Source of the DNA: Lachnospiraceae bacterium
Lineage (GTDB): Bacteria; Bacillota_A; Clostridia; Lachnospirales; Lachnospiraceae
DNA: 13,094 nt
NCBI GenBank assembly: GCA_009911175.1
Contig: QXWX01000144.1
Coordinates: 1-13,094 of the forward strand
Direction of reading: 5' to 3'
The stretch's first letter is position 1; each line of letters opens with the position of its first letter. A program made the position numbers and the translations under genes. This document shows positions 1 through 12,550 of the stretch, one piece after another. Under the pieces are notes generated by a model, which was given only the letters and a program-made list of their open reading frames with translations, was not told where the DNA came from and did no database searches.

Positions 1-78
1 ATGAAAAGTCTATACGGAGCTCCTTTTAGAAAAAAATAATCTGCAAATCGAATGCTCTTTTAATCTGAAAAACAACAT
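1..78. mobile_element. AT-rich flank, possible end of a second serine-recombinase element
   Basis: This stretch is about 31% GC (25 of the first 80 bases by hand count), while the coding sequence directly to its right is about 60%. It supplies only the last few codons of the ArdC/LPD25 gene, which end in an unusual Cys-Cys-Phe-Ser-Asp tail. The boundary reads CAACA, TC, then GC-rich coding sequence, much like the right end of the nested element (CCAACA, TC, then topB). On the minus strand there is a Shine-Dalgarno-like AAAAGGAG at about 21-28, but no start codon follows within usual distance before the window ends. The mobile-element reading is an inference. Confidence 0.3.
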
Positions 79-2543
79 CCTGCGGCGGCTGCTTCCTGTG
101 CGATTTCCTCCTTGACGTGTTCCTTGTAGGCTGCAAGCTCCGTGTCAAAGTCTTTAAGCTGCGGGACGGGCGGCAGGCTGTAATCCCCGCTGTTTACCAT
201 TGCCCGGCATTTGGAAACATAGTCTTTCATGGCGGTGTGGTAGGCGGTTTCGGTGGCGGTCATGCCGCTGTTTTCTTCCAGTGCCTTTGTTGCAATTTTC
301 TCCATTTGGGAGAGGTTGTTGTGCAGTTTCAGATAGGGGACAAACTCATGCAAGAGTATTTCCCGCTGTGCCTTGTCCGCTTCCAGTGCTTCCTTGCCGC
401 CGCTGTGTAAAACAAAATTGTCCCAGTCCGCATTGTTCTCATAGTAGGCATGGTAGCTTTCGATATGGTCTATGAGAGTGCCGTCCCCGTCCCCTAAGTC
501 CTGCCGCCCGATATAATTGTCGGGCTGCCCGTTCATTACAAAGTCAATGCGGAATTTTGTTTTATAATAGCCGTCCTCGGCAACGGTGGCTCTGTCAATG
601 CTTTCTATGAGGGCGTTTGCTTCGGAAAGGCTCATGGTTTCGCCGTCATGGAAACGGCTGTGTTCGCTCCAAAGGATTGTGACAACCGGCTCTGCGCCTA
701 AGTCGGGCGTTGGGAAAGTATTTTCCGGCTGCTCCGTCTGTGCGTCCTCTTTTGTGGGTTCTTGTGTGTCTGCCTTTTCCGCTTTTGGTGTGTCCGCTGC
801 GGGTTCGGTTGCGTCTGCTTTTTCCTCCTGCGGCGGCTCTGCCGTGGGTTCTGTTTTTTCCTCCGGCGTGGGTTCGTCTGCCTGTGCTTCCTGTGCCTGC
901 GTCTGCTCCTTATTCTGTGTCAGCTCCGCAAAGTTTTTATCTATTTCCTTAATCAGTTCGGAAGCGGTGCTGCGGATTGTTTCAAGGGACGCTTTCAGCT
1001 CGGCAAGCTCCCGCCCGCTGCTCCATTGTGCCACATAAGAAAAGGAATAGGCGGAAGTGTCAAGCCCGTAATGCTGGCACACGGCGTAGGCAATGCTTTC
1101 CGCCTGTACCTCACGGGTGCGGCGGTCGGGGCGGTCTGCCTGCTCCTTTGCCGGGGCGTTCAAATCTATGTCGTGCAGCTTGGCGTGTGCAATCTCATGT
1201 ATCAGTGTTTTAAGGTTCTGCAATTCGCTCATGCCCTCGTTAATGGCAATGCGTTTTTCGGTCTGTGAGTAGTAGCCCTTTGCGCCGCTTTCTATCTTTT
1301 CAAATTCTACCGGGGCGGGGCTTGCCTGTGTTGCCGCCTTGAAGAAATCGGCGTACTGTTCCACGTCCCCGGTCAGCTCGTCAACGCCGATAGTGGGAAG
1401 CTCCTTTCCCTCGGTCTGCGACACGTCAAAGACGGAAACAACCTTGAACGCCGGGACGGTTATTTCCGTTTCCTCCTTGACGGGCTTTCCGTCTTTGCCG
1501 ATCACTGGCTTTTGGGTCTGCGGGTCGATTTTGTCAACTTCCCTCTTGACTTTGTAAGGGGACGGCGCAAGTACCTTGATACCTTTTGCGCCCCTCGCAA
1601 CCTGCCGTCCAAATAAATTCTTCCATGAGTTGTAGCCCGCTACTAAGGTTGCGTCCGGCTTCTGCATGGCGATTAAAAGGGTGTTGTTAAAGCTGTAATT
1701 ATGGAACTTTGACATTACCTGCAAATACTCTTTGAAACGGTCGCTGTCGAATAAATCCTGTATGCCCTGTTCCAGTCGGTCAGTGATCTCTTTTATCTTT
1801 TCATTGGGTTTCTGCGCCGTTAATTCAATCGGGTGTGAGGGATTGGCGGCGGCTACTGCCTGCGGGTCTAAGGTCGGGGCGGCTGCGGCTTCCTTTTCGT
1901 CCTGCTCCGGGGCGGTGCGTTCCGTTTCCGGGTAACTCATTATGCGGTATTTATCCGGCGTTTCCTGTCCGGCGTAAACCTCTTTCCAGTCCGTCCCGCT
2001 TCTTGCGATATAGCCGTAGTCGGTCAGCTTCCCGTCCTCATGGAGTGCGGCGTTAAAGCCGAAATCCTCCTTGTCAATCCCGGCTTTCCATTCCTCCGGC
2101 ATTTGCACTTTGCCACTGTCATTGAGGAAATAGTCGCCCAATTCCTTATAGCTCAAAATCCCCGGAACGTAGGAATAAAAATCTGTGTTATAGGTGTGGT
2201 CTATCAGCCTGTCAAGGCTTTCCGGCTTGAAGTCGCTGTGCATTACTGCGTCCAGTCTTTCAAGCTGCTCCGGGGTCATTTCTTCCAGTCGGGAAGCAAG
2301 GAAATTTATCTTGTCAAGGTCGCCGTCCCTTATCCAGTCAAAGGGTATCTCTATGCGCCTGTTCTCGTCCGTGGAATAGCCGTTCAAGAAAAAATCATGC
2401 GGGTTGTCGGCGGTAATGTTCAGTGCTTTCATGGCTTCGTGGAGTTCTTCTTTTGTGGCGGGCAGGGAGAGGTACACGCCTGCCAGATTGCCTTTTTCAA
2501 ACTCGGTGCGGTTCTGTATCAGCACGGAAAAATCATCTTTCAT
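60..2543 (-). CDS. ArdA/ArdC-like antirestriction and zincin metallopeptidase protein with LPD25-like C-terminus
   Basis: A multidomain accessory protein of conjugative elements, about 827 aa from the ATG at 2543. An AGGAG lies 10 nt upstream; a TTG at 2549 is the alternative start. Residues of about 20-105 resemble ArdA-type antirestriction domains (GVYLSLP, many acidic residues). About 245-335 match the ArdC N-terminal ssDNA-binding domain (MSKFHNYSFNNTLLI). A zincin site HEIAH lies at about 449-453, with a probable third ligand Glu in EVQAES near 482. An Ala/Glu/Pro/Thr-rich linker (about 550-615) leads to an LPD25-like domain starting VVTILWSEHSRF. By family, such proteins protect incoming single-stranded DNA from restriction or process proteins during transfer; the exact role here is inferred. 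The end looks abrupt (AAAAGCCFSD), and as I recall homologs continue with a Gly-Met-Thr-type segment, so the 3' end may be truncated by inserted DNA. Confidence 0.8.
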   Translation of the reverse strand: MKDDFSVLIQNRTEFEKGNLAGVYLSLPATKEELHEAMKALNITADNPHDFFLNGYSTDENRRIEIPFDWIRDGDLDKINFLASRLEEMTPEQLERLDAVMHSDFKPESLDRLIDHTYNTDFYSYVPGILSYKELGDYFLNDSGKVQMPEEWKAGIDKEDFGFNAALHEDGKLTDYGYIARSGTDWKEVYAGQETPDKYRIMSYPETERTAPEQDEKEAAAAPTLDPQAVAAANPSHPIELTAQKPNEKIKEITDRLEQGIQDLFDSDRFKEYLQVMSKFHNYSFNNTLLIAMQKPDATLVAGYNSWKNLFGRQVARGAKGIKVLAPSPYKVKREVDKIDPQTQKPVIGKDGKPVKEETEITVPAFKVVSVFDVSQTEGKELPTIGVDELTGDVEQYADFFKAATQASPAPVEFEKIESGAKGYYSQTEKRIAINEGMSELQNLKTLIHEIAHAKLHDIDLNAPAKEQADRPDRRTREVQAESIAYAVCQHYGLDTSAYSFSYVAQWSSGRELAELKASLETIRSTASELIKEIDKNFAELTQNKEQTQAQEAQADEPTPEEKTEPTAEPPQEEKADATEPAADTPKAEKADTQEPTKEDAQTEQPENTFPTPDLGAEPVVTILWSEHSRFHDGETMSLSEANALIESIDRATVAEDGYYKTKFRIDFVMNGQPDNYIGRQDLGDGDGTLIDHIESYHAYYENNADWDNFVLHSGGKEALEADKAQREILLHEFVPYLKLHNNLSQMEKIATKALEENSGMTATETAYHTAMKDYVSKCRAMVNSGDYSLPPVPQLKDFDTELAAYKEHVKEEIAQEAAAAGCCFSD

Positions 2544-2571
2544 AAGCAATAAGCTCCTTTCTAAAAATGGG

Positions 2572-2637: not shown

Positions 2638-3459
2638 CTATGCTTTGAATATAAAATCTTTTATATTGCCAGTTGGAGAAGCAAGCATTTTATCGAATAG
2701 AACTATATTTTTTCCACCATTGCAGACGGTACTTTTATAGATTATTCCACTATATCCTTTTGAAATGAAATATTGTGCTAGACATTGGAAAGGGGCATAT
2801 ATCAATTCTTTATCATTTGTTTCTAAGGGAACAAAAATGTTTTCAGACATTAGTTTTGCATATGTAAAAGTAATCCATTTCTTTGTTTCATATTCAAGGT
2901 TATTTTGTTTAATATTGCTTGCGAAATTGACGTTAAGTTTGTCAAAAGACACTTCATCACTTATAGTCAAATCAACAATTTTTTTATCAAGATATTTTTC
3001 GCTGATAGCAAAATGGCATAATCCAACTCTATCATTATCTTCAATCCGACATTCTTGAATACAACAATTTTCTATATTAGGAATTGCAGATATTGGATTG
3101 CCTATTGCAAGATATAGCCATTCTATACCTTTGGGACTAAAGCGATTATCTTCATTGATAAATTTAGATTTTGGAATAAACCTGTCATAAGTTACTTTTT
3201 CTAATGGTTTGAGTTTTGCACCACGACATAAATCTGTGTTTTTATCGCTTAAATCTGATAGAGTAGTTGATAATAAACCTCTCATAGATGTGTCTTGGAA
3301 AAGCTCGTCAAAAACATACAAAAAAGTATCGGATAATGCTTTGCTAACTTCATCGTATTTATATTTCTTGCTTGCTAATGATATTGTGAAGCCATTCCAC
3401 GTTTGACGTATCGTTTTTTCGCATTTATCTTTACCCGTAAAATCTAAAATCATTCCCAT
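2638..3459 (-). CDS. Solitary RES-domain protein (putative NAD+-degrading toxin/defence cargo)
   Basis: A 273-aa protein from the ATG at 3459 (GAGGTGG upstream; a GTG at 3468 is also in frame). The C-terminal two thirds look like a RES domain: Arg79 in CRGA, Arg106 in NRFSPKGIEWLYLA, Glu136 in IQEC, and Ser243 in the GYSGIIYKST then GGKNIVLF signature, giving the Arg-Glu-Ser set for which the family is named. RES proteins with known activity consume NAD+ and usually pair with an Xre/DUF2384 antitoxin. None is adjacent here, so it is either an orphan toxin or an abortive-infection-type effector controlled through its own roughly 100-aa N-terminal part, which I do not recognise. The gene is far more AT-rich than its neighbours (27% GC in a sampled 60-bp line) and has its own promoter and terminator, so it looks like an acquired cargo gene between topB and the ArdC/LPD25 gene. 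Confidence 0.7.
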   Translation of the reverse strand: MGMILDFTGKDKCEKTIRQTWNGFTISLASKKYKYDEVSKALSDTFLYVFDELFQDTSMRGLLSTTLSDLSDKNTDLCRGAKLKPLEKVTYDRFIPKSKFINEDNRFSPKGIEWLYLAIGNPISAIPNIENCCIQECRIEDNDRVGLCHFAISEKYLDKKIVDLTISDEVSFDKLNVNFASNIKQNNLEYETKKWITFTYAKLMSENIFVPLETNDKELIYAPFQCLAQYFISKGYSGIIYKSTVCNGGKNIVLFDKMLASPTGNIKDFIFKA

Positions 3460-3485
3460 ATTTACCACCTCATATTGTTTTATTT

Positions 3486-3636: not shown

Positions 3637-5428
3637 TTACTTCTTGGGTTTTGGCTTCCCTTTCTGCTTTAACTCGATTTTGTAATTAACGTACTTGCCG
3701 CCCGTGTCTGCAAGCAGCACGTCAGCGTCATAGGTCTTGCCCGTTTTCTCGGAATACAAGCCTTTCATGCCTGCCCTGCCTTTGCTAAGCAAAGCGGCGG
3801 CAACGGCGGCGGTCAGCTCCTTTTTCTTGCCCGTGAAAAAGAGGTCATTCTTCCACATGGAAAACGCACAATCCCTGTTGCTGCAATAGAAATTTTTCTT
3901 TCCCTCATAGACGGGAGAGCCGCACCGGGGACACTTGCCGATTTCCTTTCGCTCCGGCGCAAACAGCTTTTTCTTTTCCTCCGGGACGGCGGCGTATTCT
4001 TTCACAAGCCCCGCCGCCATTGCTTCAATGCCACGCATGAAGCTGTCCGGGTCGGCTTCCCCTTTTGCGATCTCCGTAAGGGCGTTTTCCCACTCGGCGG
4101 TCAGCTTCGGGCTTGTGAGAATGTCGGGCAGGACGGCGACAAGGTTCTTGCCGTCTTTGGTGGGGATAAGCTGCTTTTTCTTCCGTTCCACAAATCCCGC
4201 CTGCACAAGTTTTTCCAGTACCGCCGCACGGGTGGCGGGAGTGCCTAAGCCTTTGCGCTCTGCGTCCTCTGTAATGTCCCCGCTTTCCGCCCGTTCCATT
4301 GCGGATAACAGGGTATCTTCCGTATAGGCTTTCGGGGGCGTTGTGTCATGCTCGGTCATGGCTGCCTTTGCCGTGATTTTTTGTCCCTCGGTCAGCTCCG
4401 GCAATGGGTTTTCTTTTGTGGTTTTCCCGTCCTCCGGCTTCGCTTTCAGCGTGGCACGGAAGCGGCGTTCCAGTTCCTTAAAGCCCTCGCATTTGACGGT
4501 CTTTCCCTTTGCCGTAAAGGTCACGCCGCCGCAGGAGAGGGAAGCGGTCACGGCTTCGTATCGGTGGGGCTGCGCCGTTGCGGATAACAGTTTCATGGAG
4601 AGTAAAAGCAGGATATTCCTTTCGCTTTCGGGCAGGCTGCCTTTATCTGTCTTTACCGCTTCGGCGGTGGGGATTATGGCGTGGTGGTCGGACACTTTCT
4701 TGCTGTTTAATATCCGGGAGTAGTCCGGGGAGAGGTCAACGCCTTTTGCAAAGTCCAGTGTGCCGAAAAGCCCGGACACGATAGTTTCAGCGGTGGGGAG
4801 CATATCGTCCGTTAAGAATTGGCTGTCCGTCCGGGGGTAGGTGCATAGCTTCTTTTCATAGAGCGATTGGGTGTAGTCAAGGGTCTGTTTGGCGGTGTAG
4901 CCGTAAAGCCTGTTTGCTTCCCGCTGCAAGGTTGTGAGGTCATAAAGGCGGGGCGGATTCTCGGTCTTTTCTTCCCGGACAAGGGAAGTGCAGACGGCGG
5001 TTTTTCCGTCACAATCCTTGCGGAGTTTTTCGGCTTCGTCTTTCTCTGTGTAGGGCGGGCTTGCCGCTTCAAAAGTGCCATTGCCGATATGTACCACATA
5101 ATATTTTTTCTTCTGGAAATTCTGGATTGCGTTGTCCCGTTCCACAAGCAGGGAGAGGGTCGGTGTCTGTACCCGCCCCACGTTCAAGGTGTGGTTGTAG
5201 AGGACGGAGAAAAGGCGTGTCGCATTGATACCGATTAGCCAGTCAGCCTTTGCCCGGCATAGTGCGGAATGATATAACGGGTCGTAGTCGTGTCCGTCCC
5301 GCAAATCGTCAAATCCTTTCTTGATTGCGCTTTCCTCCATGCTGCTTATCCACAAGCGGTAGAACGGTTTTTTACACCCGGCTTTTTCATAGACAAAACG
5401 GAAAATCAGTTCCCCCTCACGCCCTGCG
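3637..5428 (-). pseudogene. topB: DNA topoisomerase III, 3' part of interrupted gene
   Basis: This is the C-terminal 597 codons of a type IA topoisomerase, cut inside the TOPRIM domain. The fragment starts within the codon for the first Asp of D-A-G-R-E-G-E-L and continues IFRFVYEKAG. The active-site tyrosine lies in CTYPRTDS, residue about 301 of the restored protein. A GLGTPATRAAVLE segment follows. A C-terminal zinc ribbon has Cys at about 603, 606, 619 and 624 (CPRC ... CSNRDC), followed by a Lys-rich tail. There is no good ribosome-binding site or start codon after the in-frame TAA at 5455-5457, so this half is probably silent while the element is present. Joined to the 5' part after removal of the inserted element, it gives a 700-aa protein, about the expected length for TopB of Tn1549-like conjugative elements, where it is thought to help process the transferred DNA. 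Confidence 0.9.
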
Positions 5429-5441
5429 TCTGTTGGATAGT
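5429..5441 (+). repeat. Left attachment site of the nested element (core TC plus inverted arm)
   Basis: TC at 5429-5430 is the shared crossover dinucleotide and TGTTGGATAGT at 5431-5441 is the terminal arm. Left of it is topB sequence coding for A-G-R-E-G-E. Right of it is element sequence carrying the recombinase 3' end, whose stop codon is only 28 bp inside the arm. Confidence 0.85.
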
Positions 5442-5468
5442 TGGAATAGGTGACTTAGAAAATATCCA

Positions 5469-7106
5469 TTATTCAAGGGTTTCCAGTGCCCCTATGAACT
5501 TGTAATGGATAGTAAGTCGTTGAATTTTCTGCCCGTCAACTTCTACGGGTTCAGAAACAAGAATTTTTTCTATAAGTTGATTGATTATCTTAAAATTGAG
5601 TTCTGTTATTCCTGCATAACCGCTTATCTGCTCCGCAAACTGCTCAATGGAAGATAACTGCTCCTTGTCTGCTATGGCACTTTTTTCAAGTTCCTTTATC
5701 TTGGCTGTCAGTTCCTCCTGCTCGCTGTCATACCTTGCCGACAACATCTGAAAACGCTTTTCGGTCAGCAGTTCCCTTGTCAAGTCCTCGTACAGTCTGG
5801 CATACAGGTTTTCAATCTCCGACACACGCTGTTTACATTGCCTTAGTTCCTTTTTCTGCTGTTCCCTGTCCGCTGACATTTGGAGATTAAGACGCTCCGC
5901 AATTTCCGTTACCATTGCTTTCCTGTCCGTCAGTGCCTGTCCTGCGTGTTTCTGAATATCCGCAAGCACAACTTCGTGAACCGTCCTTGCTTCAATATTG
6001 TGTGATGAACACCCGTCTTTTCCAAACTTACGGTACTTGGTACAGCAGTAGAAAGTCTTGTCTAATACATTGTTACGCTTTCTTTTCTGCTCGACTTTGG
6101 CAAGCATGGCACTCCCACAATCAGCGCATTTGATAGTCCCTCGGAAAATGTTATCATATCCGCTTGAGCTTTCCCCGATAACAGGTGGTCGGCTCTGTAA
6201 AATCTTCTGCACATTGTTCCAGCGGTTCTGTTCGATAATCGGCTCATGTGTGCCATAGATAACTTCACGCTCTGCAAACGGAATATACTGTCTTTTCTTG
6301 GAACGCATGGTCTTAGTTGGTTTGTCCGCAACAGTAAGGTTTCCTGCATAGACGGGGTTGTGCAATATCTGACTGACATAGGCAGTATCCCAGTCATACA
6401 TTTTTTCCTCGTCCATAAAACGCTCAAACAGTTCCTTTTTGTAAAAACTCGGTTTCAGCACTTCCGCCTTACGTAAGCGGTTACAGATAGTGTGAAGCCC
6501 CACACCTTCCTCGGCGATTGAGAAAATCAGTTCCACAATGGGGGCGGTCACTTCATCAATGACAAGGTGGTTATGGTCTTTCTCGTCTTTCTGATAACCG
6601 AACGGGGCGGTAGTAGCCATATACTTGCCCTGCATTCTCCTTGCGTGGAGTGCGCTCTTGATTTTCCTTGACGTGTCCTTTGCGTACATTTCATTGATGA
6701 TGTTGCGAAATGGTGTAATATCCATTTGTGCGTTGTCTATGGAGTCCACGCCGTCATTGATAGCAATGTAACGTACATTATGGTTGGGGAAAAACACCTC
6801 GATATATGTACCCGTTTCAAGATAATTTCTCCCCAAACGTGACAGGTCTTTTGTAATGAGCGTTGACACTTCCCCGTCCTGTATGTCCTCAATAAGCTGT
6901 CGGAAAGCGGGGCGGTCGTAGTTCGTACCGCTGTAACCGTCATCAACGTAGAACTGGCAGTTCAGAAAACCGTTGCGCTTTGCATAATCTTTCAGCATGG
7001 TTTTCTGTGTGCTGATACTCATGCTCTCGTTGTTCGTGCCGTCATCTTTGGAAAGCCTGCAATATAAAGCAGTGATTTTGTCGTTATTCAGTTTTGCCCT
7101 TTTCAT
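5469..7106 (-). CDS. Large serine recombinase (TnpX/TndX-like) of the nested element
   Basis: A 545-aa site-specific recombinase, the probable integrase/excisionase of this element. The ATG at 7106 is preferred because AAGGAGG lies directly upstream; the longer reading from 7139 has no such signal. The resolvase catalytic domain contains nucleophile Ser19 in YCRLSKDD, DDGYSGTNYDRPAF, and KDLSRLGRN with Arg90 and Arg93. A recombinase domain follows (APFGY at about 168-171, then the NPVYAGN segment). A zinc ribbon has Cys at about 327, 330, 354/355 and 366. A long charged coiled-coil (about 395-500) leads to a DUF4368-like C-terminal end. The gene has its own promoter, and its stop codon lies beside the left attachment site. 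It belongs to the TnpX/TndX type, whose members use GA crossover dinucleotides, in agreement with the TC/GA found at both ends here. Confidence 0.92.
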   Translation of the reverse strand: MKRAKLNNDKITALYCRLSKDDGTNNESMSISTQKTMLKDYAKRNGFLNCQFYVDDGYSGTNYDRPAFRQLIEDIQDGEVSTLITKDLSRLGRNYLETGTYIEVFFPNHNVRYIAINDGVDSIDNAQMDITPFRNIINEMYAKDTSRKIKSALHARRMQGKYMATTAPFGYQKDEKDHNHLVIDEVTAPIVELIFSIAEEGVGLHTICNRLRKAEVLKPSFYKKELFERFMDEEKMYDWDTAYVSQILHNPVYAGNLTVADKPTKTMRSKKRQYIPFAEREVIYGTHEPIIEQNRWNNVQKILQSRPPVIGESSSGYDNIFRGTIKCADCGSAMLAKVEQKRKRNNVLDKTFYCCTKYRKFGKDGCSSHNIEARTVHEVVLADIQKHAGQALTDRKAMVTEIAERLNLQMSADREQQKKELRQCKQRVSEIENLYARLYEDLTRELLTEKRFQMLSARYDSEQEELTAKIKELEKSAIADKEQLSSIEQFAEQISGYAGITELNFKIINQLIEKILVSEPVEVDGQKIQRLTIHYKFIGALETLE

Positions 7107-7122
7107 GTCGTCCTCCTTAATG

Positions 7123-7140
7123 AAAAGGGACTTCCTCAAT
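7123..7140 (-). repeat. 18-bp repeat in the recombinase leader (copy 1)
   Basis: The minus strand reads ATTGAGGAAGTCCCTTTT between the predicted -10 (7145-7150) and the Shine-Dalgarno of the recombinase. An identical 18-bp copy in the opposite orientation lies at 12182-12199 near the other end of the element. Its position in the 5' untranslated leader suggests an operator or a protein-binding site, but no regulator is identified. Confidence 0.6.
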
Positions 7141-7144
7141 TCCT

Positions 7145-7173
7145 ATTATACTATATTCCCTTTTCCGTTTCCA
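7145..7173 (-). promoter_or_regulatory. Promoter of the serine recombinase gene
   Basis: On the minus strand TGGAAA (7168-7173, 4 of 6 consensus) and a perfect TATAAT (7145-7150) are spaced by 17 bp. Transcription would start near 7138, in the 18-bp repeat, about 30 bp before the recombinase ATG. No clear terminator was seen between the recombinase stop and the left end, so transcripts may run into the topB remnant. Confidence 0.65.
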
Positions 7174-7176
7174 GTG

Positions 7177-7350
7177 CTAATTTACGCTGTTTTCCGCTAT
7201 CTCCTTAACCTTTTTTGTTATCTGTTCCTCGGCTATCCGCTTGAATACCGTTTCCATTTTTTCAGTGCCTACATAGTGCCTTTCCACGATAATTTTTGTG
7301 GTTGGGTGCTGTCGGGTGGCTCTATGCCCTGTGTTGCTGTCTTTGCTCAT
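7177..7350 (-). CDS. 57-aa small protein upstream of the recombinase (possibly TnpW-like)
   Basis: The minus strand has AAAGGAG, seven bases, then ATG (7350) and an open frame of 57 codons ending in TAG at 7177. The protein starts MSKDSNTGHRATRQHPTTK, continues with a short beta-like stretch IIVERHYVG, then a charged helix ETVFKRIAEEQITKKVKEIAEN. It is too short for most ORF cutoffs but has a good ribosome-binding site, lies between the GNAT terminator and the recombinase promoter, and is on the same strand. Very small proteins called TnpW accompany many transposon recombinases of this group and share a short 'hydrophobic strand then helix' layout. The assignment is a weak resemblance, not a confident match. 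Confidence 0.6.
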   Translation of the reverse strand: MSKDSNTGHRATRQHPTTKIIVERHYVGTEKMETVFKRIAEEQITKKVKEIAENSVN

Positions 7351-7364
7351 AAATCTGCTCCTTT

Positions 7365-7405
7365 ACAATAAAATAGAGCGCATAGATTTGTTTTCTATAC
7401 GCTCT
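7365..7405 (-). terminator. Terminator of the GNAT gene
   Basis: The minus-strand RNA would pair AGAGCGUAUAG with CUAUGCGCUCU (7375-7405; 11 bp with one U-G pair, 9-nt loop). The pairing is followed by ATTTTATTGT. It stands 85 bp after the GNAT stop codon and immediately before the Shine-Dalgarno of the 57-aa gene. Confidence 0.6.
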
Positions 7406-7489
7406 GACGCTGTGTTGATTATTCAGTTGTGATTATAGCAAGGTAAGATAAAAACTAATTGAAATTAAAAATATATGTTTTCTCAACTT

Positions 7490-7981
7490 CTAAAGTGAAT
7501 TATCAAACGTAAATCCTGTTTCATTTGCCTCCGTTGCAGTAAATGTATCATATTTCCCTTTTGTATACTCCGCAATAACCTTACCCCAAAAGTTTTGGGC
7601 AGGTAAGTTGTTAATCCATTGGGATATTTCCCACCCACCATGAAACATATCAAAAATCTTCATAGCGGCTACCCTGCCAACTCCTCTTTGTCTGTATTTC
7701 TTCATTACAAAAAATTCGGCTATGTTATGAGGGTTTGGCAGATTATTATGTTCACAACAGGAACGTACTAAAACCAGTCCTGCAAGTTTTCCATTTACCC
7801 TGATAAAAAAAGGGTGTCTGCCTTCTTCATTCCAATAATCATCAATATGCTCATATCCAAAATATCCATATTCGTTTATGTCATCATTGGAAAACTCTGA
7901 AAAATCATAATTATACAATTCCAACATCTGAATAAAAACAGATTTCTGCTCGTATAATATAGGCTCTACACGAATGTCCAT
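7490..7981 (-). CDS. GNAT-family N-acetyltransferase, cargo gene
   Basis: A 163-aa predicted acetyltransferase that would transfer an acetyl group from acetyl-CoA to an unknown amine. The acetyl-CoA pyrophosphate loop is visible as RQRGVG (97-102) after the strand NIAEFFVMKKY, followed by helix RVAAMKIFDMF. NLPAQNFWGKVI (125-136) is the motif-B-like segment. The overall pattern fits the COG5628-type predicted acetyltransferases. The ATG at 7981 has GGAGG seven bases upstream and a perfect TATAAT about 20 bp upstream of the start. The gene is AT-rich (33% GC in a sampled line) compared with the recombinase and relaxase beside it and has its own promoter and terminator, so it behaves as a cargo cassette. 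The substrate is unknown; an antibiotic or toxin target cannot be claimed from sequence alone. Confidence 0.82.
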   Translation of the reverse strand: MDIRVEPILYEQKSVFIQMLELYNYDFSEFSNDDINEYGYFGYEHIDDYWNEEGRHPFFIRVNGKLAGLVLVRSCCEHNNLPNPHNIAEFFVMKKYRQRGVGRVAAMKIFDMFHGGWEISQWINNLPAQNFWGKVIAEYTKGKYDTFTATEANETGFTFDNSL

Positions 7982-8002
7982 ACATATCCTCCATAAAATT
8001 TT

Positions 8003-8031
8003 ATTATACTGTCTATGATTTGTACCTCTAA
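8003..8031 (-). promoter_or_regulatory. Promoter of the GNAT cargo gene
   Basis: A perfect -10 TATAAT on the minus strand at 8003-8008. The 17-bp-spaced -35 position (8026-8031, TTAGAG) is weak. The short leader then carries GGAGG before the start codon. An extended -10-like TGGTATTCT in the adjacent 39-bp repeat is an alternative upstream promoter. Confidence 0.45.
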
Positions 8032-8036
8032 CAGAA

Positions 8037-8075
8037 TACCATAATCACACGCACATTTCTATTAGATTTCCATTA
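8037..8075 (-). repeat. 39-bp block after relaxase stop codon (related copy at 11051-11089)
   Basis: This block starts exactly at the relaxase stop codon and ends upstream of the GNAT promoter. It aligns without gaps to 11051-11089, at 29 of 39 positions by hand count, including a shared TCTATTA core and a shared TACCA end. The second copy likewise starts at the stop codon of a gene and precedes the other AT-rich cargo gene. Confidence 0.55.
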
Positions 8076-9662
8076 AATCTCTTCCTCCCTCCGCTTAGTC
8101 TTGTTTTGTTGTCTGTTATGCTGTCGGCTTTCGTTCTGAAGTTCCCTCTCAAGGTTCTTCCTGTTATAGCTGATTACCTCGGCATATGCTAACTCTGTGG
8201 CGGTCTTGGTCTGCTCTCTGCCGATACTGTCATACTCGGATTGCAAGGACTGTATCTCGGCTTTCCACTGTTTCGGCGTTATCTTCTCGCCGTTCTGTAA
8301 AAGGCTCTGCATACGCTCCTTTAATTCGGGGTACTTTGATAAGCTGTCCTTATGCTCTCTATCGTATTTCATCTTAGCAAGTCCTTTGAGTGACTGGCTC
8401 TCCCTATAGGTGGCTTGGATTGGCGCATAAAGGGCATACATTTTTGACAGTTCCTTTAATCGGTTTAGTTTCTGCCCCTTTGAAAGATGTACCGTTTCCA
8501 ACTCTTGGTATCTCTGTTCCTTATCCGCTGTGAATTTCGCAAGGCTCTCAAAGCTGTCTATCTTCCTTGTTGTGATAAATTTTTCCGCATTGTCGGCTGA
8601 CTGCAAGGCGCTTCTGTCGGATATTCTTCTTAGGTGCTTTCCACTGACAATCGGCAAGTCAAGTCTGCCTTTGCGCTCCCTCACCTTTGCAATCATCTCC
8701 ATGACCTCATTCTTTACGCTGACCGCCGCATTTTTAATCTGCGTACTTTTGTACGTTGCGTACTGTGCGCTGTGAAGTTCCTGCTTGGCAAGCATGAGCA
8801 TTTCTTTCGCCTGTTCCAACAGCATATTGTTCTTGATGATTTCCCGATTGATGTTTCCCCTCTCGGTCTGTATTCCCTTGCGCTCTAAAGCGTTGGCAAC
8901 CGCCCCGATATGGATAGTTGGCTCTCGGTCAATTCCCTGTTCCTTAAAAGAACGGTGTTCCCAATGTACCGCAATCCCTAACTGCTCATTGACGGCATTG
9001 ATTGTGTCGGCTAAATCCTTGCGCCACATTTTAGCGTTTTCCTTACTGTTCCAGTCGGTGCTGTCGGCGGTGTGGCATTTCCATTGTTTCCTGTTCCGCT
9101 TGTCAACTTTCTGCTGACCTGTCTTTTTGTCAATCACTGGTATCTTTTCGCCGTTTTCGTCAAGGTCATAGATTTTCTTCTGTTTCGCTCCCCATTCCCC
9201 GTTTTCAGTGATAGGGCGCATGGTAAGCAAAACATGGATATGGAGATTACGCTGTCCTTTATCGTTCTCGCTGTCATGGATTGCCCAGTCAGCGCACATA
9301 CCTTTATCAACAAAATTCCTCTGAACGTAATCCCTCACAACTTCCTCTGCAAATTCGTAACTCCATTCGTTGGGGAGTGACGCTTTCAACATTCTTGCAA
9401 GCTGTGATTTCTGCCCTTTCTCTGACAGTTCAACAGCGTTCCATAAAGTGGCTCGGTCTGCATACTCTTTGGGCGCATTGGGCGGGAGAGTGATTTCACT
9501 ATGGACTAAATCCTCATGGTATTTCGGGCGGTAGGTCTGCCCGTCAAACTCGCTGACAAGAACACTCCTGCTGATATAGGACGCTTTCTCAACTGCCGAC
9601 TGCCCCTTGCTCCGCTTGACTATGGAAAAACGTGTGCTTGCCTGTTTCGTGACATTACCCAT
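8073..9662 (-). CDS. MobA/MobL-type (MobQ family) conjugative relaxase
   Basis: A relaxase of about 529 aa that would nick the element's oriT and lead the strand during mobilization. The ATG at 9662 is chosen because an AGGTG sits 6 nt upstream; a GTG at 9671 is also in frame. The N-terminal nickase domain shows STRFSIVKRSKGQSAVEKASY with probable catalytic Tyr29. It also has HSEITLPPNAP and the metal-binding histidine motif with His129, His141 and His143 (RNLHIHVLLTMRPI). The domain ends near residue 260. The C-terminal half is helical and charged (HSAQYATYKS, LKERMQSLL, a Gln/Arg-rich tail KRREEEI), as usual for MobA/L proteins. The probable oriT and a DUF3847-like gene lie directly upstream, the normal mobilization-module order. 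No coupling protein or mating channel is encoded, so transfer would need a helper. Confidence 0.92.
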   Translation of the reverse strand: MGNVTKQASTRFSIVKRSKGQSAVEKASYISRSVLVSEFDGQTYRPKYHEDLVHSEITLPPNAPKEYADRATLWNAVELSEKGQKSQLARMLKASLPNEWSYEFAEEVVRDYVQRNFVDKGMCADWAIHDSENDKGQRNLHIHVLLTMRPITENGEWGAKQKKIYDLDENGEKIPVIDKKTGQQKVDKRNRKQWKCHTADSTDWNSKENAKMWRKDLADTINAVNEQLGIAVHWEHRSFKEQGIDREPTIHIGAVANALERKGIQTERGNINREIIKNNMLLEQAKEMLMLAKQELHSAQYATYKSTQIKNAAVSVKNEVMEMIAKVRERKGRLDLPIVSGKHLRRISDRSALQSADNAEKFITTRKIDSFESLAKFTADKEQRYQELETVHLSKGQKLNRLKELSKMYALYAPIQATYRESQSLKGLAKMKYDREHKDSLSKYPELKERMQSLLQNGEKITPKQWKAEIQSLQSEYDSIGREQTKTATELAYAEVISYNRKNLERELQNESRQHNRQQNKTKRREEEI

Positions 9663-9720
9663 ACGCAACACCTACATTCTGCCAATAGGGTAGTGGGGTG
9701 CATGAATAGACTTTGTGGGC

Positions 9721-9931
9721 AGATAAAAGCCGCACTTTGGCTTTTGTCTGAACGCAAAGTTCACTAAAGGGTAGCAAGCGCAGCTTGCGAAGGGGAATTG
9801 TCGTTTCCCCTTTTGGCTGTCGCAAGACAGACAACGCTCTCCGCAGGAGTCCATGCAAGTGAAACTTGCCCCTCGGAGAGCGCACATACCACCTCTGGTG
9901 GTATATCTGTGCGCACCCTGTAAACAGGGTG
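9721..9931. other. Array of consecutive hairpins upstream of the relaxase: probable oriT region
   Basis: The roughly 300 bp between the relaxase and the DUF3847-like gene has no supported gene. It packs at least seven inverted repeats into 211 bp: 9721-9731/9739-9749 (11 bp, one mismatch); 9774-9779/9783-9788; 9790-9797/9805-9812; 9817-9821/9826-9830 with a GCAA loop; 9835-9843/9874-9882 enclosing 9855-9860/9864-9869; 9880-9886/9908-9914 enclosing 9886-9893/9897-9904; and 9914-9920/9925-9931 (7 bp, TAAA loop). Position next to a MobQ relaxase makes oriT the best reading. A GTGCGCACCCTG at 9909-9920 loosely recalls the GTGCG/CCCT nick region of R1162/pIP501-type oriTs, but the nick site is unproven. 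Confidence 0.6.
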
Positions 9932-9968
9932 GATACGTTACCTCGGCTTTCCAGCATCCTCGCCTTTG

Positions 9969-10310
9969 TCATTCCGTATCGCCCTCGCTTTCGTTTTCGG
10001 CATTGGTGAGCGTGGATTGTGGGGGAATGGTTTCTCGGCTTTCCGCTTTGATTTTGGATATAATCTGCTGACACTCCCTAGTCTGTAAGGCAACCGACAA
10101 GATACGGTTTAACTCGCCCTCGTCATAGCGGTAGCAGTCGGGGAAATACTTCACAATGATACCGCCCATGATGTACTTGTGATGGTTCTCGGCTTTCCGT
10201 TTCTTCTCATTTTGCTTTTTCTTTTCGTTGGCTACACGTTGTTTCGCCTGTTCCAATGCTTGCAATGCTTTTGCTAAGTTTTTGCTTGCGTCGTTTTTAT
10301 TCTCAATCAC
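9969..10310 (-). CDS. DUF3847-like mobilization accessory protein
   Basis: A 113-aa protein from a GTG start at 10310 with GAGGT seven bases upstream. The N-terminal half is a charged coiled coil (residues about 8-45: LAKALQALEQAKQRV, then Lys/Glu/Asn repeats). It is followed by HHKYIMGGIIVKYFP and a helical segment DEGELNRILSVAL. This layout (coiled coil, basic patch, Gly-Gly, hydrophobic segment) resembles the DUF3847 family encoded just upstream of MobA/L relaxases in gut Firmicute mobile elements, where a MobC-like role in oriT binding is plausible but not proven. It precedes the hairpin array and the relaxase. A Shine-Dalgarno and the upstream terminator at 10353-10397 separate it from the phosphatase cargo gene. 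Confidence 0.65.
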   Translation of the reverse strand: MIENKNDASKNLAKALQALEQAKQRVANEKKKQNEKKRKAENHHKYIMGGIIVKYFPDCYRYDEGELNRILSVALQTRECQQIISKIKAESRETIPPQSTLTNAENESEGDTE

Positions 10311-10352
10311 TTTTGATACCTCATTCTTTCTGTGCTGTGTTATTAGTTTCTG

Positions 10353-10397
10353 AAAATAAAAAAGGTAGCTGATTGTCTGTTAAGATAATCGCTACCT
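10353..10397 (-). terminator. Terminator of the histidine phosphatase gene
   Basis: AGGTAGC (10363-10369) pairs with GCTACCT (10391-10397), extended inward by GATT/AATC past a single bulge. On the minus strand the stem is followed by TTTTTTATTTTC. It lies about 65 bp past the phosphatase stop codon. Confidence 0.8.
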
Positions 10398-10462
10398 AAA
10401 AATAAACAATGTTCAGTTTTTACATCATTTTTCTGTTCTGATTTTCCCCGACAAGTGGGAAT

Positions 10463-10999
10463 TTACCGTTCTGCAATAACATATTCACCATTTGAATAGC
10501 TTAATTTGGTGTGACTAATCTTAAACGCTTGTTGCTTCATTTGGCTAAGGAGCGTGTGCATAAAAAATCCATGCGTGACAATGATACAATCTTTTTCCTT
10601 TTCCGCTATCATATTTATAAATTGCTCGGCACGATAAACCGTTTCTTTTCTGCATTCTTTTTGTGTATAAATATTAAAAAACCATTGTAAACGTGCGGAA
10701 ATATTCCAAAATATAAGCGGCAGCTTTTTATTTGAAATAACACTTGCACATAGAGGTACTTCATCAAGCAACTTTGTAGGAATAAAATCTCTTTCACCAA
10801 ATAACTGCTTTGCTGTATCCATGCTTCTTTGTAAAGTACTGATATAAATATCTTGATGATTTATTCGGATACCATTTGACAACAAAAAACAAATCGGTGC
10901 ATCATCATACATTTGACAGTCCTTATTAAACTGTTCCGATGTACTCCATTTTTTCCATTGAAAATCCACTTTGCCATGCCTCATGACAATCGCCCGCAT
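10463..10999 (-). CDS. Histidine phosphatase (phosphoglycerate-mutase-like) family protein, cargo gene
   Basis: A 178-aa protein with the catalytic set of the histidine phosphatase superfamily: Arg7-His8-Gly9 (MRHG, phosphorylated His8), Arg58 in TLQRSMDTA, Glu80 in DEVPL as probable acid, and His143 in VTHGFFMH. These enzymes remove or move phosphate groups on small molecules or proteins; the substrate cannot be told from sequence. The ATG at 10999 has GGAGG eight bases upstream. The gene is AT-rich (32% GC in a sampled line), has its own terminator and follows a 39-bp block related to the one before the GNAT gene, so it looks like a cargo cassette added between the small conserved genes and the mobilization module. 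The full active-site set argues against it being a decayed relic. Confidence 0.82.
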   Translation of the reverse strand: MRAIVMRHGKVDFQWKKWSTSEQFNKDCQMYDDAPICFLLSNGIRINHQDIYISTLQRSMDTAKQLFGERDFIPTKLLDEVPLCASVISNKKLPLIFWNISARLQWFFNIYTQKECRKETVYRAEQFINMIAEKEKDCIIVTHGFFMHTLLSQMKQQAFKISHTKLSYSNGEYVIAER

Positions 11000-11050
11000 A
11001 TCTATACCTCCACTAACACCGATTTGTTAAATTATTCAATGTCATTATCT

Positions 11051-11089
11051 TACCACAAACGCATACACAATTCTATTAAATTTTGCTTA
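11051..11089 (-). repeat. 39-bp block before the phosphatase cargo gene (related copy at 8037-8075)
   Basis: This block starts at the TAA stop of the 93-aa gene (11087-11089) and runs toward the phosphatase leader. Gapless alignment to 8037-8075 gives 29 of 39 identical positions. On the minus strand it contains TGGTAAGAT where the other copy has TGGTATTCT, both compatible with an extended -10 element (TGn then TAnnnT). It may therefore be a shared promoter, or a shared junction where cargo joined the element. Confidence 0.55.
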
Positions 11090-11368
11090 ATCTCCCTTTG
11101 CTTTATTCTTTGCAATCATCATCTGCCTTGCCCGTTCCCTCTGCTCGGTACTGACCGCTCTCGGCTTGCGGTAGCTGATATATGATTTCGGAAAAGAATA
11201 GGTTTTAGATACTTTGTCTTGCTCCGTCAATTTGTATGTGTCGGGGAAGTCGGCAACAAGCGTGTCAAGTTTCCGCATAACTGCTTTATCTCTTGTGTAG
11301 ACTGTGGCGGTCTGTTCTCCTGCATTGTAATTAACAATCGTTTCCTGCTCATATCGTGAAAGTTTCAT
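11087..11368 (-). CDS. Conserved small protein of unknown function (93 aa)
   Basis: The 93-aa protein begins MKLSRYEQETIVNYNAGEQTATVYTRD and ends in a basic helix (EQRERARQMMIAKNKAKGD). It has two segments: an N-terminal strand-like part with Tyr/Thr, and KTYSFPKSYISYRKPRAVS, where basic and aromatic residues alternate. Proteins of this type recur in mobile elements of gut Firmicutes, but I cannot give a function. DNA or RNA binding is a guess from the basic C-terminus. Its ATG overlaps the TGA of the 202-aa gene by four bases (ATGA), which implies translational coupling and a shared job. Confidence 0.75.
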   Translation of the reverse strand: MKLSRYEQETIVNYNAGEQTATVYTRDKAVMRKLDTLVADFPDTYKLTEQDKVSKTYSFPKSYISYRKPRAVSTEQRERARQMMIAKNKAKGD

Positions 11369-11973
11369 AGTGCCATATCCCCCTTTCCCTTGCTGTGGGT
11401 TCTATGCTGTTTTCCCACGGCAACTGTCGGCTGTTTCGCCTGTTCCTTTGCTTTGGCTAACCTTGTCTTTATGGAGTGGTCACGCTCGGTCAGTTTCCGT
11501 CTTTTGGTGGTGGCGGTCAGTTCCGAACACGTTTCTTCGGACAGGGCATTTAATTTCTTCAATGTGCCGCTTACTATCTGCTTTGTGTCGCTGTCCTTTA
11601 TCTGCGGAAGAATAGCGGACAGACTGGCGCACGTTTCCGCTTTGCTCTGCTCTCCAAACTGATAAATCAGATTGACTTCATCAGCGTTAAAAGGTATATG
11701 AAAATTTGCGCCCTCACATAAACGCTCCACGCCCACGCACTTAGGGATATTTCTTGTCAGTTCGTAATTATCCCTTGCTGTGATTGTTCCATGACTGTCG
11801 GTCTGACTTACCTCAACTTCGCACTGGCTTTTCTGCTCCAACACAAGCCACTGGTATTTGTCGCTTTCTTTGGTAAATACAGTCTGATGCGCATTAGAGT
11901 GTGTCTTGCTACGGATATATTTGTCTGTGGTGCTGTAATAATCTAAAATCTGCTGTTCCTGCTTTTTGTTCAT
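11365..11973 (-). CDS. Hypothetical protein (202 aa), first gene of the element's minus-strand operon
   Basis: A 202-aa protein I do not recognise. It starts MNKKQEQQILDYYSTTDKY with AGGAGG nine bases upstream of the ATG at 11973. The N-terminal 115 residues are mixed alpha/beta with several Trp/Tyr (KYQWLVLEQKSQ) and a segment ARDNYELTRN. The middle (about 110-160) is predicted helical with paired Cys (AETCASL, EETCSEL). The C-terminus is strongly basic (TKRRKLTERDHSIKTRLAKAKEQ, then KQHRTHSKGKG), typical of nucleic-acid binding. It overlaps the 93-aa gene by four bases. As the first gene after the right-end terminator it could be a regulator or accessory of replication/mobilization, but that is inference only. 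There is no signal peptide or membrane segment. Confidence 0.75.
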   Translation of the reverse strand: MNKKQEQQILDYYSTTDKYIRSKTHSNAHQTVFTKESDKYQWLVLEQKSQCEVEVSQTDSHGTITARDNYELTRNIPKCVGVERLCEGANFHIPFNADEVNLIYQFGEQSKAETCASLSAILPQIKDSDTKQIVSGTLKKLNALSEETCSELTATTKRRKLTERDHSIKTRLAKAKEQAKQPTVAVGKQHRTHSKGKGDMAL

Positions 11974-11990
11974 GGTCTTTGCCCTCCTGT

Positions 11991-12017
11991 GATATGGATT
12001 GATTGATATGATTGATT
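11991..12017 (+). repeat. Two tandem 13-14-bp direct repeats upstream of the 202-aa gene
   Basis: GATATGGATTGATT (11991-12004) is followed directly by GATATGATTGATT (12005-12017), differing by one G. The pair lies immediately upstream of the Shine-Dalgarno of the 202-aa gene, so it would be in the leader or be an operator. Confidence 0.5.
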
Positions 12018-12126
12018 GGTTTCGGTGCTGATATATGGTTTTCTTTCGTTGATTGTCGGGAGATTGGATTGCGGAATACTGTTGTTGGGCATTTCTCCGC
12101 TTGTTGGAATAAGGGTTTATTTCTTA

Positions 12127-12138
12127 CGGTAATTACCG
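12127..12138. promoter_or_regulatory. 12-bp perfect palindrome in the right-end leader
   Basis: CGGTAATTACCG is perfectly palindromic and lies just after the terminator, in the 255-bp gene-free stretch upstream of the 202-aa gene. It has the form of a binding site for a dimeric regulator. No convincing promoter was found close by, and the rest of this stretch shows only the terminator, the tandem repeats and the 18-bp repeat. Confidence 0.4.
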
Positions 12139-12142
12139 CATG

Positions 12143-12172
12143 AAAAAAAGCTATAACCGTTATTGTCATAGC
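12143..12172 (-). terminator. Terminator just inside the right end (insulates the element from topB transcription)
   Basis: The minus-strand RNA pairs GCUAUGAC (12165-12172) with GUUAUAGC (12150-12157), 8 bp with one wobble. It is followed directly by seven T residues (12143-12149). It lies about 60 bp downstream of the TAG that ends the broken topB 5' part, so topB-operon transcripts should stop here. It also leaves four T residues on the plus-strand side, so it may work weakly both ways. Confidence 0.7.
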
Positions 12173-12181
12173 CTTTTAAGG

Positions 12182-12199
12182 ATTGAGGAAGTCCCTTTT
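12182..12199 (+). repeat. 18-bp repeat near the right end (copy 2, inverted relative to copy 1)
   Basis: ATTGAGGAAGTCCCTTTT is on the plus strand, identical to the minus-strand leader of the recombinase at 7123-7140. It is 30 bp inside the right attachment arm. Confidence 0.6.
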
Positions 12200-12228
12200 T
12201 TATTTGTATTTGTTTGTCACCCCTCCGC

Positions 12229-12241
12229 ACTATCCAACATC
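12229..12241 (-). repeat. Right attachment site of the nested element (inverted arm plus core)
   Basis: ACTATCCAACA at 12229-12239 is the inverse of the left arm, and TC at 12240-12241 is the crossover dinucleotide. The topB codons for L-I-C-A-T lie to the right. The inserted bases turn the next codons into D-V-G followed by a TAG stop. Confidence 0.85.
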
Positions 12242-12550
12242 CGTGGCGCATATAAGGGTTTCCACATCTTTTCTGTGCATGAGGTTTTTTAAGGTTTCAA
12301 ACTGTTCTTCCTTATCCGGGGATATGACGGTTTCCCACGTCTGGGGCAGGATTGGTAAATCTTCATAACGCCATTTTTTATAGTCCCCGTAATGGGTAGC
12401 GTCTGCCAGTCCCGCAAGGTGTCCCACACACCAACTAACAAGGTAGCCGCCGCCCTCCATGTAGCCGTCTTTTCTTTCGCCTGCGCCGATTACGGCGGCG
12501 ATTGCCATTGCAACGCTTGGTTTTTCTGCGATTACAAGTTTATGCTGCAT
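12230..12550 (-). pseudogene. topB: DNA topoisomerase III, 5' part of interrupted gene
   Basis: The start is the ATG at 12550, eight bases after AAAGGAG. It encodes 106 aa, of which 103 are authentic TopB: the TOPRIM beginning MQHKLVIAEKPSVAMAIAAV with the conserved Glu of AEKPS, then GGGYLVSWCVGHLAGLA, ending ETLICAT. The element then adds Asp-Val-Gly and a TAG. The product would lack the D-A-G-R-E-G-E metal-binding motif and everything after it, so it should be inactive. The gene follows the 65-aa Cys-protein gene by 14 bases in one operon. Joined to 3637-5428 through a single shared GA it gives codon GAC and an uninterrupted 700-aa frame. Confidence 0.9.

Follow-up and report, generated by a model that had tools for sequence, protein, structure and literature searches.

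A candidate integrative and mobilizable element at the TOPRIM codons of topB in a Lachnospiraceae genome

The interrupted topB gene and the ends of the insert

The window described here is the whole 13,094-nucleotide stretch of contig QXWX01000144.1 (assembly GCA_009911175.1) from a Lachnospiraceae bacterium, in which the topoisomerase III gene topB is interrupted by an inserted element that carries its own recombinase and relaxase. The insert lies on the minus strand from 5431 to 12239 (6,809 bp) and interrupts topB within the codon for the first Asp of the TOPRIM motif DAGREGEL. The 5' part of the gene (12240..12550, minus strand) encodes MQHK...LICAT, 103 amino acids ending at 12242, followed by the GA of the Asp codon. 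The 3' part (3637..5430, minus strand) runs from the GAC of that Asp codon to the stop and contains the Topoisom_bac domain (PF01131); its 596 amino acids after the Asp, beginning AGREGEL, start at 5427. P0002, an intact 698-aa homologue of the 3' part, is 94% identical to that part and 92% identical to the 5' part over 103 aa. Removal of the insert rejoins topB in frame, as the initial annotation had proposed, giving a protein of 700 aa (103 aa, the Asp formed across the junction, and 596 aa).

On the plus strand, the first junction reads ...GCG TC followed by TGTTGGATAG, which begins at 5431, and at the other end CTATCCAACA, which finishes at 12239, is followed by TC CGTGGCG. The TC dinucleotides that flank the insert, at 5429-5430 (the recombinase-side junction) and 12240-12241 (the other junction, with one copy of the duplicated dinucleotide), correspond to a GA core on the coding minus strand. 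The ends of the element are imperfect inverted repeats of 31 nt (5431..5461 on the recombinase side and 12209..12239 on the far side) that are 74% complementary, with the outer 11 nt pairing perfectly.

These ends had been fixed to the base by artificial joining of the two topB pieces, and a natural empty site allows them to be tested without it. Locus L127, in another Lachnospiraceae genome, has an intact topB that matches the window at all 60 nt to either side of the junction and contains a single GA. Both this site and the homologous copies of the element described below, 53 of which have the same recombinase-side end, place the ends at 5431 and 12239. L127 shares its genome with one copy of the element (L039), and L128, which is also an intact topB, shares its genome with another (L018). 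Close intact topBs read the same as the window at the junction codons, both at L127 and in the homologous proteins; among the matches listed, DAGREGEL is present in 118 of 120 homologous proteins, and P0020 and P0083 are without it. In an alignment with E. coli topoisomerase III, the split residue falls on the first Asp of DPDREGQ. The earlier claim that the insert strikes the catalytic metal-binding motif stands as to position, but the motif here reads DxGxE, with Gly where the common DxDxE form has its second acidic residue.

Genes of the element

The recombinase gene (5469..7106, minus strand) encodes a large serine recombinase whose start is taken as the ATG at 7106, behind AAGGAGG; the open frame reaches 7139. 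The protein has the complete domain set of TnpX/TndX-like large serine recombinases (Resolvase, Recombinase, the zinc ribbon Zn_ribbon_recom, and DUF4368) and matches the TnpX N-terminal domain 2mhc (E 2e-39). Upstream, a 57-aa open reading frame (7177..7350, minus strand), known from the list of open reading frames only, occupies the place of the small TnpW genes and is a putative member of that group. A gene named TnpW is also carried by p49969 of Citrobacter freundii.

A MobA/MobL relaxase (8073..9671, minus strand; PF03389, E 5e-71) is MobQ-like, and its score against the NCBIfam MobQ model (197.2 bits) is slightly below the cut-off of 200. The element therefore has a site-specific recombinase, defined ends and a relaxase of its own, as expected of an integrative and mobilizable element (IME). 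No mating-pore family was found among the seven larger element proteins scanned. The remaining genes, all on the minus strand, encode a GNAT-family acetyltransferase (7490..7981; PF00583, with no NCBIfam match) and a histidine phosphatase family protein (10463..10999; PF00300), both cargo; a putative transposon-transfer assisting protein, TTRAP (11365..11973; PF14203, E 3e-15); and proteins of 113 aa (9969..10310) and 93 aa (11087..11368) with no family match in the scans. NCBIfam resistance models matched none of the ten window proteins scanned, and Rfam at gathering scores gave no match in the window.

Two features of the noncoding sequence are conspicuous. An inverted pair joins 7123-7154, where GAGGAAGTCCCTTTT lies just upstream of the recombinase Shine-Dalgarno sequence, to its complement at 12168-12199, 40 nt inside the other end. 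By our count, 38 of 53 copies have 1,706-1,707 nt between the first half and the end, and the second half lies 39-45 nt from the far end in all 32 readable copies. This pair could act as an antisense or pair across a read-through transcript, controlling translation of the recombinase. The far end itself (12060-12239, minus strand) has an unusually stable predicted RNA fold (z -4.0), perhaps a terminator against read-through from topB.

Copies of the element within and outside topB

Searches with the recombinase, which were blind to the target, yielded 76 loci in a scan of species genomes; four later additions (L118, L119, L121 and L122) and the window bring the sources to 81. The recombinase-side end is readable, with up to two mismatches, in 53 of these, and the remaining 28 comprise diverged relatives, decayed copies and contigs that end too early. 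GA, which is the rule as core dinucleotide for TnpX/TndX recombinases, adjoins this end in all 53 readable copies. At 36 of the 53 the GA is the same one in topB, in a frame reading DAGREG (DAGREGELIF in 34 and DAGREGLLIQ in 2). Chance is not an explanation for either count. The 36 topB copies represent 30 distinct sites at <97% identity over 300 nt, or 18 at <80%, and all have one orientation because the core is asymmetric. Far ends are GA in all 20 distinct topB sites where they are readable and in 6 of 8 other sites. The length of the element is 6.5-9.5 kb over 24 topB copies.

Thirty of the 36 topB copies have recombinase and topB sequences long enough for pairwise comparison. Across the resulting 435 pairs, the recombinases are 91-100% identical and the topBs 28-100% identical, and in 98 pairs recombinases at least 98% identical lie in topBs at most 60% identical. 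Such pairs reflect repeated insertion rather than descent with one host element. The element is uncommon overall: a recombinase this close (E <= 1e-200) occurs in 4 of 397 genomes, in even samples of the family of the nearest genome. It is hardly credible that the nesting is decayed or made by assembly, with no living element behind it. A broken recombinase in two of the 35 topB copies uncut by a contig end would fit that explanation, but the recombinase frame is at least 515 aa long in 33 of the 36, and the junction ends agree across many separate assemblies.

Diverged recombinases use the same address. Among those 58-63% identical to the window's, three of four readable loci are at the same GA in topB: two Faecalibacterium loci about 63% identical (L036 and L037) and L120, at 58%. 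A third Faecalibacterium locus (L040) is elsewhere, and the contig of a fourth (L038) ends too early. Among recombinases at most 48% identical, none is at the TOPRIM site of topB in the loci tested; many of these loci are short or were examined solely by tblastn. Only L036, L037 and the Tn7470-type L115 match topB among 34 relative loci (including L036-L038, L040 and L049). L109 and L163-L167 have no topB match; these loci are short, and the stretch read for L163 and L167 is inside the recombinase. A search of viral contigs with the Faecalibacterium recombinase found no relative. In L115 (NZ_CP070545.1), the p49969 relative of Tn7470, the topB pieces break near residue 475, and on this sequence topB is struck at a second point by another lineage. 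At L166, a recombinase 42% identical is followed, at GA, by the codons DLEQRAGRIVRQG, which by eye are a SNF2-type helicase motif.

The likely hosts of the element are integrative and conjugative elements (ICEs). Within the window, the only ICE-type gene beside topB encodes an ArdA/ArdC/LPD25 polyvalent protein (60..2549, minus strand; PF07275, PF08401 and PF18840) of the likely host mobile element. Beside the topB targets of relatives lie, among others, genes of the kind that ICEs carry: CD1107-like (L039), CHAP with ArdA/ArdC (L018), and a MobA/VirD2 relaxase (L027). The earlier suggestion that the recombinase has become adapted to a target shared by many conjugative elements is supported by the 36 of 53 copies, by topBs down to 28% identity, and by the surroundings of the five targets examined, three of which have ICE-type genes next to them. 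In the window, a gene for a RES-domain protein (2638-3468; PF08808) separates topB from the ArdA/ArdC gene. RES proteins occur in RES-Xre toxin-antitoxin pairs, and this gene is perhaps part of such a pair or an inserted cargo gene.

Together, these data favor, with a probability of about 0.88, an IME whose large serine recombinase prefers a single GA dinucleotide, the one that opens the Asp codon of the TOPRIM motif DAGREG(E/L)L, in the topBs of conjugative elements. Sequence comparison shows where the element begins and ends to the base, its natural empty site, the recurrence of the site in many divergent topBs and with two diverged recombinase lineages, and the relaxase.

Several observations weigh against it. 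Seventeen of the 53 readable copies lie outside topB; L015, L016 and L075 are entirely unlike the topB site, and most other off-target sites resemble it partially, several only weakly. The far ends of L016 and L049 are AA rather than GA, and these two copies are therefore probably rearranged; the shared recombinase-side end of the 53 copies otherwise agrees with the boundaries first proposed. Clear ICE markers are absent among the proteins scanned beside two of the five targets (L002 and L004). Housekeeping-type topBs (five read, L157-L161; DAGREGELVA) carry the same target codons, and despite this none of the 36 topB insertions is in a gene of that type. No circle junction was found in 39 carrier genomes, viral contigs or 126 loci, a result that does not exclude excision. 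Two statistics on the off-target copies must also be read with care, as their values are not true probabilities: the copies are related, and L048 and L072 are one site counted twice. With this limit, and in support of the reading, the 17 non-topB sites score above other GA sites of their own loci on a matrix built from topB sites (Mann-Whitney p 2.3e-6), with G at +3 in 14 of 17. The recombinase is broken in 8 of 16 off-target copies versus 2 of 35 topB copies (Fisher p 0.0006, with one contig-edge copy dropped per class), a comparison that only suggests greater decay off target, since the 515-aa cut-off and the edge rule are both crude and L075 was judged on 464 bases.

Because 17 of 53 copies are elsewhere, site specificity is strong but not absolute. 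The same 17 copies, one of them inside another serine recombinase gene (L047:11706, a nesting within nesting), could be read as the work of a multi-targeting TnpX/TndX-like transposon with relaxed specificity, for which the topB cluster would reflect tolerated or carried insertions rather than targeting; DUF4368 marks a multi-targeting clade in the available text of Durrant et al. (PMC10083194). That reading is unlikely: 36 of 53 copies share a single base position in a single motif, three of four readable copies of diverged lineages join them, and tolerance alone would not choose a single dinucleotide within topB. A finer preference for G at the wobble position +11 (20 of 30 occupied sites versus 5 of 29 in a family sample that included L097, in fact an occupied copy) is not claimed, because by our count 6 of the 16 topBs left intact in carrier genomes also have G at +11, and because the copies share ancestry.

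Proposed mechanism and comparison with known systems

In the mechanism proposed for this topB-directed IME, the recombinase would read DNA that is conserved through conservation of the protein motif, and would tolerate third-base changes in the target codons. Recombination would join attP and attB at GA, leaving a GA at each end and splitting topB. The element may later excise as a circle, be nicked by its MobA/MobL relaxase, and pass through the pore of its host ICE or of another ICE; it may also be carried passively inside the ICE. TopB function would presumably be lost while the element is in place.

A different explanation is that the element is a programmed switch: by excising, it would restore topB and thereby set the timing of host ICE transfer or replication. 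Such switches have a precedent in active lysogeny, where prophage excision restores comK. Excision here would give back the exact frame, and an insert in an active-site codon would keep the gene off when occupied. A switch is nevertheless very unlikely: related topBs are intact in the same genomes at 16 of the 30 topB loci read, the element has its own relaxase and a variable length, and the circle junction was not found.

A broader extension of the IME reading, to which we give slightly less than an even chance, is that the element exploits a protein-constrained DNA address. With the first two positions of each DAGREG codon invariant and the third bases free to vary, nearly every topB on an ICE, of whichever family, would present a place to insert. 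Off-target copies would be trapped and decay, in line with the excess of broken recombinases among them, so that topB would be more than a favored site: it would be where the lineage endures. Other lineages would have made similar use of other conserved motifs, namely HLGR_IME/Tn7470 with a later part of topB and L166 apparently with a SNF2-type helicase motif. On the main reading, the element is a parasite of mobile elements that recognizes the ICE it inhabits through the codons of a catalytic motif. With dozens of natural sites available, some occupied and some empty and all differing in sequence, it can be tested directly by what rule the recombinase recognizes its target and what the loss of TopB costs the ICE.

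The recombinase belongs to the same broad clade as TnpX of Tn4451 and TndX of Tn5397: it matches 2mhc, as noted above, and is 33.8% identical to the products of plasmid genes named tndX. It differs from these in that the target is one motif of topB. A search of the open-access literature found no paper with both TnpX and "GA dinucleotide". Large serine recombinases with DUF4368 have been described as a multi-targeting clade (Durrant et al. 2022, PMC10083194, available text), and the window recombinase has this domain at its C-terminus; in contrast, one target motif dominates here, and "topoisomerase" does not appear in the main text of that paper as available.

Streptococcal IMEs with serine integrases have been reported in the ICE genes traG, snf2 and maff2 (Coluzzi et al. 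2017, PMC5357655), and IME sites include SNF2 and PPI as well as the traG, COG4646 and membrane-protein genes of the Tn1549 family (Libante et al. 2019, PMC7168690). As far as the accessible portions of these papers show, such elements likewise pair a serine recombinase with a relaxase and disrupt a conserved ICE gene. Here, by contrast, the element and its relatives target the TOPRIM codons, and they do so in gut bacteria (Lachnospiraceae and Faecalibacterium); the accessible main texts of both papers do not mention topB.

The closest parallel is HLGR_IME of Streptococcus dysgalactiae, an IME with a serine integrase and a MobA/L relaxase that is similar to Tn7470; according to the sections available of a 2026 paper, its preferred site is the topoisomerase III gene of ICEs, there called topA (PMC13214566). 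Tn7470 is found in Tn7100 of Haemophilus influenzae and in p49969 of Citrobacter freundii (PMC9355037, in part). From what these sources give, HLGR_IME/Tn7470 and the window's element are alike in being serine-recombinase IMEs in a topoisomerase III gene of ICEs or plasmids, in having a MobA/MobL relaxase (Tn7470 itself is without a relaxase gene), and in the reported imperfect repeats, which end in GA. They are not the same element: the p49969 recombinase is 32.8% identical to the window's, and its topB is broken in another conserved part rather than near residue 102, at TOPRIM. The published elements also carry aminoglycoside resistance genes, as reported in the portions available, whereas none was found in the window. 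With HLGR_IME included, recombinase lineages that are only distantly related have settled on the topB of ICEs at two separate positions. The open-access literature searched yielded no match for the TOPRIM-codon target, for its repeated use in topBs that share as little as 28% identity, or for the family in gut commensals. An IME in an ICE topB is therefore already known, and what distinguishes the element described here is an unusually well-defined target.

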